Shown piece after piece: positions 3,364-9,965 of a DNA stretch of 24,398 bases (the stretch's first letter is position 1; every line of letters begins with the position of its first letter). The notes under the pieces were generated by a model. The model was not told where the DNA came from and made no database searches. It worked only from the letters and a program-made list of their open reading frames with translations. The translations under genes and the position numbers were made by a program. Source of the stretch: a virus; the IMG/VR virus record IMGVR_UViG_3300006925_000144, positions 1 through 24,398 of that record; one strand, given 5' to 3'.

Positions 3364-4278
3364 ATGCCAAAACCCGAAAAAGAAAAAAGTCTTATTGAGC
3401 TTGCTAGAGAACATATGGAGAAGCAGGGTGCCTCTCCCGAGCAAGGAGTGGACATTCCCGAGGCACCCGTTGCCAGTCGCCATCAAAGCGCTGTAAAACC
3501 TACTTCCGATAAGGGGGAGGAAACTCCACAAATTAAAGAACACTTTGACGGCAAACTATCAGATGCAGTAGCAGACCTCCTTTCTAATGTAACGACTAAC
3601 CAAGACTGGAGAGCCTTAAAACTCCCCTCAAGAGGATTGGCTTATGTAGACTGTGACGAAAGTATTATGATTAAACCTTTTACTTTTGCACAAGAAAGAA
3701 AGTTACGCAGCATTAAAACCAATGCTCAAGGACTAAAGGTGATTAACGCTTTGATTGAAGATTGTGTGCGCGGGCTAGATTACGACTCAATGACTTTAGA
3801 AGACAAAAATTATATTTTGTTTAAATTAAGAGAGATTTCTTATGGTGATGACTATACTATTCAGGCAGAGTGTCAGGAATGCCAGTCAGTTAATAAACTG
3901 ACCGTGAAAATTTCAGAGGTTCCTGTCACTTACGCAGAAGATGGGTTTCAAGAGCCCCTTACGGTCACCCTACCAGATTCCCAACAAGAAGTTAGGTTCA
4001 TAACTCCTCGATGCAAAGATGAGCAGTACCTGGAAAGTGCCGGGAAATTAATTGATAATTTATGGCGCTTCGCTTTATCGGTGGGACAGTACAGCGAGAA
4101 AAAAATAATTAAAGGTTTCTTCGAAGCTACTACAGTCCGCGACGTTGCGTATTTCCGTGAGGCTCTTACGAAAGATAATTACGGCATGAATAAAGCGATG
4201 TCTTACGAGTGCGCGAATTGTGATGCGGTCACCGAAAGTCTTATTCCGTTTACAGAATCTTTTTTCTCAGTGAGCTAG
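3364..4278 (+). CDS. T4 gp26-like baseplate/tail-assembly protein with two CxxC pairs (zero-frame product)
   Basis: The protein has 304 aa, beginning at an ATG 22 nt after the divergent inverted repeat; no Shine-Dalgarno is seen. Residues 1-75 look disordered and charged. The core begins with LPSRGLAY (88-94) followed by IKPFTFAQERKL, a pattern typical of the T4 baseplate-hub gp26-type family (Pfam T4_baseplate). Cysteine pairs C170/C173 and C283/C286 could form one zinc-binding knuckle. The frame ends at TAG 4276-4278, directly after an in-phase T_TTT_TTC heptamer. A -1 shift there would add 60 residues and give a 361-residue product. Its role may be hub assembly or tail-assembly chaperoning rather than a stable structural part. 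The family call is from pattern recognition; the exact T4 counterpart (gp26 or gp51) is uncertain. Confidence 0.82.
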   Translation: MPKPEKEKSLIELAREHMEKQGASPEQGVDIPEAPVASRHQSAVKPTSDKGEETPQIKEHFDGKLSDAVADLLSNVTTNQDWRALKLPSRGLAYVDCDESIMIKPFTFAQERKLRSIKTNAQGLKVINALIEDCVRGLDYDSMTLEDKNYILFKLREISYGDDYTIQAECQECQSVNKLTVKISEVPVTYAEDGFQEPLTVTLPDSQQEVRFITPRCKDEQYLESAGKLIDNLWRFALSVGQYSEKKIIKGFFEATTVRDVAYFREALTKDNYGMNKAMSYECANCDAVTESLIPFTESFFSVS

Positions 4279-4300
4279 AAGCGCGAATCTCCGCTCTAGC
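4260..4300 (+). promoter_or_regulatory. Candidate programmed -1 ribosomal frameshift signal
   Basis: The heptamer T_TTT_TTC at 4260-4266 matches X_XXY_YYZ in the phase of the gp26-like frame (codons TCT TTT TTC). A 7-nt spacer follows (4267-4273). Then comes a stem-loop: GCTAGA 4274-4279 pairs with TCTAGC 4295-4300, A4280 is bulged, GCG 4281-4283 pairs with CGC 4292-4294, and the loop is 8 nt. The zero-frame TAG stop (4276-4278) lies inside the stem. All three parts have the spacing expected for bacterial -1 signals. Confidence 0.8.
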
Positions 4301-4448
4301 GTCGGAAGCTTATTATTTAGTAAAACACGCGAGGTTCAGTTACCAAGACGTGCTACTTATGCCAGCTGTTGAAAGAGATGAGTTTATGGGGCTATTAATT
4401 GATGAGAATCAAAGGGAAAAAGAGTCCTATGACTCCCTAAATAAATAA
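4266..4448 (+). CDS. -1 frame extension of the gp26-like protein (tail-assembly-chaperone-like domain)
   Basis: Sixty codons are open in the -1 frame, starting at the C of the slippery heptamer (CTC AGT GAG) and ending at TAA 4446-4448. The translation begins LSELEARISALASEAYYLVK, continues with HARFSYQDVLLMPAVERDEF, and ends with a charged helix. The aromatic and helical pattern (EAYYLVKHARFSYQDVLLMP) resembles the small C-terminal T domains of frameshifted tail-assembly chaperones. The frame is open back to a TGA at 4221, and no ATG, GTG or TTG occurs before codon 29 of the extension. Independent initiation would therefore remove half the domain. It fills the whole gap before the gene at 4452, leaving only 3 nt. 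Expression as a fusion is inferred, not shown. Confidence 0.78.
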   Translation, partial: LSELEARISALASEAYYLVKHARFSYQDVLLMPAVERDEFMGLLIDENQREKESYDSLNK

Positions 4449-4451
4449 GAG

Positions 4452-5444
4452 ATGACTACATTCAACGGCGTTACTGTAATTCAAAGGGGCAATCGACCTT
4501 CACCTATTATTCCAGCTAAACTGGACTTTTTCAACTATGTTGCGGGCGAACTAAGCGACCCTTTCCAGGTATGCTCTGTTCACATTTTCCCTAATACCGC
4601 CTTTGGTACCGCATCTCCCTACGTAAACCAAACTCCTGGGGATACTGATTACGGTTTGGTGAGCTCTACTGCCACCAATATGGTGTTCCATAACTATAAA
4701 CGGAGCGAGCAGGGTGCGAGAATTGGGTTTGATGCTAATGTAAGTGCTTGTGCTGCCGAGACCGATTACGAAGGAGATTTACGCTATAGCGCGTCTTCAA
4801 TTTTCAAAGAAAAAGTAGGTCATTTCAGCGTTATTCTTCAGCCTAGCGGAACGTATTGGAAAACGGCGGACTGGGACCCCTCGTACAACAATACTGCCTC
4901 TGCGACCGGAGGGTATATTGATATCTGGACTGTGGTACACGCCGAAGGTTCTAGAGCCCAGATTTATGTAAACACCTTCAACATGGATACCGCTAATACG
5001 TTTGCGGTTTCCGAACCACTTGAAGTTACTACCTCCAACAAACTAGTTCAACGGTACGTGCAACTGGGAAGCAAGAAAAGGCTTCAAATACAAACTGAAA
5101 TTGTGGTAGACAATGAATCTATTAAACAAAATCTTCGTAATCTAATGGAGACAGGCTCGTTGCTGTCCAACCCAAAAATTAGTATTACCAAACTAAACGA
5201 AAGTCCGATTTTGGATGCCCGAGTCCAGGTAACCGGGGAAAGTGGTGCAGGTGGGTTCCAGTCCGAAGGGGTATCTTTAGATAGCCAAGGAACTATTAGC
5301 TACGTATGGGATACTAATAATATATCACCCTTCTACACTGGTGAGAAACTCGGTAGTGAAATGGGGGTTTACGAGGTCGCTGTCCAGTATGACGTAGCGG
5401 AAGAAACTATCGTAAGCCCTAGATTTAAGTTAATAGCGAGGTAG
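4452..5444 (+). CDS. Unknown protein, probable virion component
   Basis: The protein has 330 aa from an ATG three bases after the -1 frame stop, with AAGAG just upstream as a weak ribosome site. It is rich in Ser, Thr, Asn, Gly and aromatic residues with alternating polar and hydrophobic stretches, as in beta-rich phage structural proteins. There is no signal peptide, membrane segment or enzyme motif. The C-terminal third (SEMGVYEVAVQYDVAEETIV) looks like an immunoglobulin-like or beta-sandwich strand pattern. I do not recognise the family. Position after the gp26-like gene and before tail genes suggests a tail, neck or baseplate part. The last 20 nt overlap the end of the convergent primase gene. 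Confidence 0.88.
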   Translation: MTTFNGVTVIQRGNRPSPIIPAKLDFFNYVAGELSDPFQVCSVHIFPNTAFGTASPYVNQTPGDTDYGLVSSTATNMVFHNYKRSEQGARIGFDANVSACAAETDYEGDLRYSASSIFKEKVGHFSVILQPSGTYWKTADWDPSYNNTASATGGYIDIWTVVHAEGSRAQIYVNTFNMDTANTFAVSEPLEVTTSNKLVQRYVQLGSKKRLQIQTEIVVDNESIKQNLRNLMETGSLLSNPKISITKLNESPILDARVQVTGESGAGGFQSEGVSLDSQGTISYVWDTNNISPFYTGEKLGSEMGVYEVAVQYDVAEETIVSPRFKLIAR

Positions 5445-8084: not shown

Positions 8085-9965
8085 ATGTCTGAAGAAAAAA
8101 TCGACCCCGCACAGCAGAAAATTATAGACTTGCTTTCACAGATTGCAAGTGATAAACGTGGTGGCAAAACGGAAGAGGCGGAAGCTAGGCGAAACACAAA
8201 TTTCAAGAAAAACACCCGGGCTATCAGAGATAATGGGTTAGCTTTAGTGGGGCTCCACCAGGGCATGCTCAGTCTGAAATCCATGATAGGAAAGCAGCTT
8301 CAGATGAATCAAGGTTTAGCGACCGCTTTGGGGCAGACTGGAGACGCCGCGAAAGGTATTTCTGAGGCTACTGGCCGATTCCTCAGAGGTCAGCAAGGCG
8401 CAGAGCAAATGGTCAAGGTGTTTAAAGACGCCGTAGACATGGGAATGACACGGTTTTCCGACCAAACTCTACGGTTTGGCACACAATTGAAGGTTCTTGG
8501 TATTCAGAACAGAACTTCTTTTCAATTAATGCGGGTTAATACCCAGGCACTCGGTTTAGCGGAAGAAGCCTCCCTTGGTCTTGCCCAAGATTTAATCACA
8601 ACTGCCATCGAGAACAAGGACTCTATATCCGGTCTCATCGGCGCCATCAATAGTATGAAGGATGCGATGATAGACACTGCTGTGGAGCTAGGTCCGAAAG
8701 CAGCTATGAATGCCCAGAAAATAGCAGCTATGATGTCGCAAGGTAACTCTGAGCTACAAGAGTCGTCCGCTAAATTCGTTAAATCGTTCTTAGCAGGTAG
8801 TGATGGGTATATGAAAGCTGCCAAGCTAGGTGTTCAATTCACTGGCAAAGAAAGTACTGCTGAGATGGCTCGTAAATTCGAAACCATCCTTGGTAAGATA
8901 CAGGGTCTACAGGCTGGTAAACAAGGAGCAGGTTCTCAATTCTTCTTTGATGCCATGGAGAGGTCCCTTGGTTTAAGTAGAGAGGACTTCAACCTTCAAA
9001 CGCAGATAGGAACAAGTATTCATGCTCTAAAGGAAGGTAATATTAAACAATTAGCTCAGGAGAGCGCTAGCATAAACGCACAACAGACTTTCTGGAACAG
9101 AACAGAGTCCCTCCAAACAAACATATCGGAGGGAGTCGGAAACACTACGACAAAACTGAACGAAATACTCACTAAAATTGATGGTTTCAATCCGACACTA
9201 GGGAACTACCTTGTCCCTATTTTAGGCGGGATTGTTTCCCTGGTGGGTCTTCTAGGACTCAAAAGTCTCGGAAGGGTATTTTGGACCCCCATTAAATGGC
9301 TCGGCAAAGGTCTAGGGAGGGGGCTTAGTGGATTGGGAGTTGTTCTCGCCAACAAAATTTTTGGGGTAAAAAGTGCGGTAATGAAAACCTCTGGCAAAAC
9401 TATTCATGGCGCAGCGGCTAAAGGCGCTGTTAAAAAAGGTAGTGCTGTAGCTATCCAAAAAGGATTCTTTAAAGGGTTGGTCAAAAAGATACCTATTATC
9501 GGCGCAATTGCTGGCGCGGGCTACGCAGTTAGTAGAGCCGTGAAAGGGGACTGGACGGGGGCGGCTATGGAGCTCGCTTCAGGTGTCGCAAGTACAATGC
9601 CAGGATTAGGGACGGCTGCTTCCGTAGGCATCGATGCGGGTCTTATAGCCAGAGACGTAGCAAACAGCCCGACCGGAAAAGTAGCAGACTCGGCAGGAGG
9701 CACCTTCGCAGCTTCCATGTCCGAGGAGCCTGCCCCCATGGTTGCACAAGCAGAGCAAAGAGCTAAATCAATGGACTTCGGTATGTCTGATGCCGGTCGG
9801 CAAGCACTCGTTTCCGTAACAAATGCTTTGCAGGAAAATACCACTGTATTAAGAGAAATTCTAGAGTCTAATAAAGAAAGTAACAATCTGAATGAAGACC
9901 AACTTAAAATTATGTCTGATGACGGGGGACACACACGAATTAGAGCCGGGAGGATGGCATATTGA
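8085..9965 (+). CDS. Tail tape measure protein (gp29-like)
   Basis: The protein has 626 aa. It spans the tail lumen during assembly and sets tube length. Residues 1-360 are helical and Gln/Ala-rich (Gln-Gly-Ala runs). Hydrophobic stretches at about 375-395 (YLVPILGGIVSLVGLLGL), 469-482 (IPIIGAIAGAGYAV) and about 505-525 resemble the membrane-inserting segments of tape measures. The C-terminal tail is helical (TNALQENTTVLREILESN) as expected for hub contact. At about 1.5 angstrom per residue it predicts a tail of about 94 nm; T4 gp29 has 590 aa. The gene lies directly upstream of the tube-cap-like gene, as gene 29 lies before 48 and 54 in T4. Identity rests on architecture and position. Confidence 0.85.
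   Translation: MSEEKIDPAQQKIIDLLSQIASDKRGGKTEEAEARRNTNFKKNTRAIRDNGLALVGLHQGMLSLKSMIGKQLQMNQGLATALGQTGDAAKGISEATGRFLRGQQGAEQMVKVFKDAVDMGMTRFSDQTLRFGTQLKVLGIQNRTSFQLMRVNTQALGLAEEASLGLAQDLITTAIENKDSISGLIGAINSMKDAMIDTAVELGPKAAMNAQKIAAMMSQGNSELQESSAKFVKSFLAGSDGYMKAAKLGVQFTGKESTAEMARKFETILGKIQGLQAGKQGAGSQFFFDAMERSLGLSREDFNLQTQIGTSIHALKEGNIKQLAQESASINAQQTFWNRTESLQTNISEGVGNTTTKLNEILTKIDGFNPTLGNYLVPILGGIVSLVGLLGLKSLGRVFWTPIKWLGKGLGRGLSGLGVVLANKIFGVKSAVMKTSGKTIHGAAAKGAVKKGSAVAIQKGFFKGLVKKIPIIGAIAGAGYAVSRAVKGDWTGAAMELASGVASTMPGLGTAASVGIDAGLIARDVANSPTGKVADSAGGTFAASMSEEPAPMVAQAEQRAKSMDFGMSDAGRQALVSVTNALQENTTVLREILESNKESNNLNEDQLKIMSDDGGHTRIRAGRMAY

Follow-up and report, generated by a model that had tools for sequence, protein, structure and literature searches.

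We found that a T4-type tail-assembly chaperone gene in an uncultured lineage of marine T4-like bacteriophages probably carries a programmed -1 frameshift, which would yield a short (TAC-N) and a long (TAC-NC) form as counterparts of lambda gpG and gpGT; from the sequence evidence, we put the probability of this reading at about 0.92. The window, by which we mean the whole stretch of DNA analysed (24,398 nucleotides of IMG/VR record IMGVR_UViG_3300006925_000144), has all the features described here on its plus strand. The zero frame is a 304-aa T4 gp26-like ORF (3364-4278), the putative short, gpG-like chaperone, and it closes with TCT TTT TTC TCA GTG AGC TAG. In phase with this frame is the slippery heptamer T_TTT_TTC (4260-4266), followed by the 7-nt spacer TCAGTGA (4267-4273) and a stem-loop (GCTAG(A)AGCG / CGCTCTAGC, 4274-4300) whose arms, 4274-4283 and 4292-4300, form 9 bp with a single bulged A at 4280 and contain the zero-frame stop TAG (4276-4278). 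Between 4224 and the TAA at 4446-4448 the -1 frame has no stop, and the extension past the slip (4266-4448, 60 codons plus TAA) would give a fusion of 301+60 = 361 aa. The in-phase heptamer, the 7-nt spacer, the 9-bp stem-loop around the TAG, the 60-codon -1 frame and the 361-aa fusion had been set down in an earlier note made from the sequence alone, and all were confirmed. The same note described the -1 frame as startless and as filling the gap to the next gene. Indeed, the earliest start-like codon past the slip is a GTG at 4350, without a Shine-Dalgarno-like sequence, and the downstream gene begins with the ATG at 4452, directly past the TAA. Baseplate genes resembling gp53, gp5, gp25 and gp6 lie downstream in the window, and the genomic setting is therefore that of a T4-like contractile tail. 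No recognisable tape-measure gene adjoins the gp26-like gene within the window. About 3.6 kb past the chaperone gene, a 626-aa ORF at 8085-9965 encodes a candidate tape-measure protein; its three PHROG matches are all to long phage proteins (endolysin, peptidase, unknown).

We evaluated the conservation of this layout by scanning viral contigs, which gave 28 related loci with 54-100% identity to the window, 25 of them covering the junction. All 25 junction-covering contigs have a T6 run in phase and, at a fixed distance from it, an invariant TAG, past which the -1 frame continues for 54-58 codons. An alignment of relatives, which the earlier note had called for, was built from 20 distinct sequences (alignment A1); in it the T run, the spacer, the TAG and the arms GCTAG/CTAGC are near-invariant, and T_TTT_TTN lies in phase no more than 4 codons from the stop in 20/20. 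Diversity in the -1 frame by codon position is 0.27/0.18/0.47, and the extension is under purifying selection at the protein level. These data bear on a different explanation, in which there is no frameshift and the extension is read from an internal start, as a short gene in its own right (a small gp51). The records of cyanophages and of phages Milchi and phiAS5 do place the start of a short gp51 at an internal ATG, and the huge phage LR756511 has an ATG overlapping the zero-frame stop. However, ATG, GTG and TTG are absent from the first 22 extension codons in 16 of the 20 lineage sequences, the internal ATG at 4359 is missing from L020 and L021, no ribosome-binding site precedes 4350 or 4359, and the selection signal on the -1 frame already starts right at the heptamer, upstream of any start. 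We therefore regard internal initiation as very improbable. We also looked for relatives in which one unbroken frame spans this point or the extension has a proper start of its own, and found none in the window lineage.

The stem-loop is likewise shared across the lineage. Its arms pair in 95.8% of alignment cells, compared with 19-39% when the partner is slid, and the hairpin folds in all but one of the 20 lineage sequences, with the inner stem rebuilt differently among sublineages. Compensatory changes are few, with one in the stem (G-C to A-U, in L021). Because the folding energy of the window stem as a single sequence is not unusual for its composition (z -0.18), its role as a frameshift stimulator is something we infer, likely but uncertain. 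A long-range pairing of the T run proposed by RNAalifold was attributed to invariant columns rich in A/T and discarded. In cyanophages, comparable downstream stems are strong in some sublineages only. One such sublineage (L091-L113) has a strong hairpin of ~11 bp (AGTATGGCTCA...TGAGTCATACT) close past the gp26 stop and heptamer, and other sublineages do not have it.

The heptamer and the -1 extension are conserved well outside this lineage. With Methylophilales phage Melnitz (Kyanoviridae) as the point of departure, we gathered 80 further contigs with 65 distinct gp26 genes of the cyanophage type, and all 65 have an in-phase T_TTT_TTN 0-1 codons upstream of the stop, followed by a -1 extension of ~60 residues ('..LSHDSLESYYKLNFxMMQHHNYSLTELENMMPWEREIYVGLL..'). 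Elsewhere in the two gene sets the motif is rare (6 in 6124 codons and 4 in 15263 codons for the sets of 20 and 65, respectively), so its placement near the stop in 20/20 and 65/65 genes exceeds chance. With a profile scan we found the heptamer and the -1 extension in a further 14 divergent lineages, and both are also present in P-HM1, S-RIM8, Pseudomonas phage Milchi, Aeromonas phage phiAS5 and Vibrio phage PG216, whose records give the extension as a small gene of its own, labelled 'gp51' or hypothetical. Homopolymer errors are common, and the earlier note had named a miscounted run, with seven T in truth and one continuous frame, as grounds for rejecting its proposal. The T6 in the same phase in all 25 junction-covering contigs, the conserved TAG within a conserved stem, and the identical layout in the 65 cyanophage-type genes and several isolated phages speak against an assembly or sequencing error, which these independent genomes refute and to which we assign a negligible probability. 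Slippage could instead be by RNA polymerase at the T6 run, with the long form read from edited mRNA; homopolymer runs can slip in this way, and some of the divergent relatives have T7 or T8. In contrast, the run in the window is just T6, the run always sits in X_XXY_YYZ phase with only tandem codons that can re-pair at -1, and in the window lineage the stem follows with a typical spacing, while polymerase slippage requires neither phase, codons nor stem. Transcriptional slippage thus has little to recommend it over programmed ribosomal frameshifting, and we consider it a long shot.

We next consider the identity of the two parts of the predicted fusion. The 304-aa protein matches Pfam PF12322 T4_baseplate above its gathering score (E 7.8e-17) and phrog_150 baseplate hub (E 5.6e-19), and the best Foldseek match of its structure model is the SP-15 baseplate hub subunit (E 4e-16). 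The same model had nothing below E 0.3 against the PDB, neither window protein had a match in NCBIfam, and no solved structure matched the window proteins by sequence. The window extension had no match in Pfam and was not significant against PHROGs as a single sequence (E 0.12). Compared by hhalign with the extensions of named T4-like phages, it gave a probability of 95.6 (E 1.2e-8), and 11 of the 20 lineage extensions matched phrog_634 baseplate hub assembly catalyst, with a best E of 0.0014. Cyanophage extensions match phrog_634 at E 7.5e-28, together with the C-terminal, gp51-covering part of phrog_150. The window extension is thus homologous to the short 'gp51' of cyanophages and vibriophages, and we take it as a TAC-C domain, gp51 C-terminal-like and putatively gpT-like in role. 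The earlier expectation that a search with the extension would hit gpT-like or gp26-adjacent proteins held for the latter ('gp51' and 'baseplate hub assembly catalyst') but not for gpT (probability 5.7). The structure model of the extension is all helical (pLDDT 84.5), with no significant match among viral structures. In T4 itself, PF12322 covers residues 1-201 of gp51 (E 3.9e-52), and T4 gp51 appears from its sequence to be a gp26-like domain followed by the equivalent C-terminal tail fused in frame. T4 gene 51 (L034 5480-6229) and gene 26 look like diverged copies. The link from the window extension to T4 gp51 was drawn through the cyanophage and vibriophage extensions because the direct hhalign comparison was weak and not significant.

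Several gp26-like genes are followed by a homologous extension in another frame. Past the gp26-like gene of SP-15 (L029 6769-6970), LIS04 (L032 6709-6928), GXN1 (L031 6730-7000) and L143, the extension is in the +1 (or -2) frame. Just upstream of the stop, these have a T run, which in GXN1 is broken up, together with a conserved GATTC/GATTT; the record of SP-15 lists this region as a separate 39-aa gene (SP15_046). A +1/-2 frame extension was also observed in two unrelated phages, Flavobacterium phage immuto (L035 4626-4931) and LR756508 (L038 4704-5006). Salmonella phage SeSz-1 (Ackermannviridae; L123 3789-3974, ATTTTCATTTAA) and Vibrio phage D506 (L124 3555-3755, CTTTTCAAGTAATG) have homologous-looking -1 extensions without a classic T_TTT_TTN. 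In LR756511 (L030 6840-7076), an in-phase T_TTT_TTC precedes the stop by a good distance and the -1 frame is open into the extension; with its overlapping ATG (TAATGG), frameshift and re-initiation are both possible there. In SP-15, LIS04 and immuto, the gp26-like gene sits between the tail tube and the tape measure, the same position that G-T occupies between V and H in the lambda gene order V-G-T-H.

Under the proposed frameshift, the majority of ribosomes would terminate at the TAG at 4276 and release the 304-aa short form (TAC-N). Some, held up by the hairpin that follows after 7 nt, would slip by -1 at T_TTT_TTC as tRNA-Phe re-pairs on TTT TTT. For these ribosomes the TAG would no longer be in frame, and they would go on to add 60 helical residues for the 361-aa long form (TAC-NC). 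If lambda gpG/gpGT is a guide, the tape-measure protein may be coated by many short and few long molecules, and the extension may, as in gpGT, recruit tail-tube subunits. It is this analogy, together with the position of the gene between tube and tape-measure genes in SP-15, LIS04 and immuto, that suggests the gp26-like window gene would make TAC-N and TAC-NC. We infer the ribosomal nature of the slippage, its efficiency, its stimulation by the hairpin and the chaperone function of the products. A more speculative idea, which we hold to be possible though doubtful, is that access to the stop hidden in the hairpin and unwinding of the stem jointly set the ratio of short to long form, and that the gp26 family has switched its recoding mode several times with a homologous extension kept throughout, from -1 at poly-T to +1/-2 in Bacillus, Listeria, Streptococcus and Flavobacterium phages and to two genes in T4.

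The abstract of Vladimirov, Gautam and Davidson (Virology 2022) is said to report frameshifting conserved in several T4-like groups, with T4 using genes 26 and 51. Xu, Hendrix and Duda reportedly set out the G-T frameshift class in 2004, for lambda gpG/gpGT and more widely. The earlier note knew of no description for the T4 gp26 family, which was wrong: going by passages that cite it (PMC10885494, PMC12846349), the 2022 study (doi 10.1016/j.virol.2021.11.003) already describes the frameshifted T4-type chaperone arrangement for T4-like phages. In particular, a passage of the PRFect paper cites it for T4-like phages in which a short gene is accompanied by a long, fused one (PMC10885494), and one in the phage Adele paper credits it with reporting that T4-like TAC-N genes carry poly-T -1 signals (PMC12846349). 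Possible additions here are the stop-holding hairpin of the window lineage and the relatives with a +1 (or -2) frame extension (SP-15, LIS04, GXN1, L143, immuto and LR756508). The frameshifted T4-type chaperone would now extend to a large uncultured marine lineage, with a slippery site that is almost invariant outside the T4 group (>80 distinct loci). Both T4 gp26 and gp51 have been listed as hub assembly chaperones, gp51 being absent from the virion (PMC3004832). Sullivan et al. 2010 observed that gp51 of cyanophages aligns to the C-terminus of other gp51 proteins, at ~20% of their length (PMC3037559), which the proposed frameshift would explain. Many cyanophage 'short gp51' genes are thus probably misannotated ends of a frameshift product. 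A literature search for remarks on the reading frame in the KVP40 annotation gave nothing useful.

Compared with known systems, the window gene resembles lambda gpG/gpGT in that one gene would give a short form and a low-level -1 long form, and several relatives have it near the tube and tape-measure genes. The slippery sequence differs from that of lambda, and hhalign of the window domains found no homology (probability 0.2 for gpG and 5.7 for gpT), which places the window gene outside the gpG/gpGT sequence family. The proposal that the gp26-type protein is the functional equivalent of gpG is therefore supported by analogy, through the frameshift layout, but not by sequence, which points to a T4-type family instead. 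The likeness to lambda is one of way of working, not of family membership. According to a passage of the phage Adele paper (PMC12846349), the TAC of Vandenendeviridae/Andersonviridae, different phage families from the window lineage, likewise shifts frame by -1 close to the TAC-N end, where a poly-T motif (GTTTTT) is conserved. P-HM1, S-RIM8, Melnitz and PG216 are closer, with T_TTT_TTN at the end of gp26 and a -1 extension homologous to that of the window. In the cyanophages and vibriophages the heptamer lies 0-1 codons ahead of the stop, as opposed to 3 in the window, gp51 is annotated as a separate small gene, and the downstream stems are different or missing. With the T4-like chaperones in general, the window gene shares the gp26-family short form, the homologous C-terminal extension and the poly-T -1 slippery site in TAC-N, and it differs from them in belonging to an uncultured lineage and in a hairpin that encloses the stop codon. 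Atkins et al. 2016 set out the action of gpG/gpGT and named T4 as an exception (PMC5009743). T4 indeed looks like one, with its short (gp26) and long (gp51) forms split into two genes, 26 and 51, whereas in most relatives examined both forms would come from one gene.
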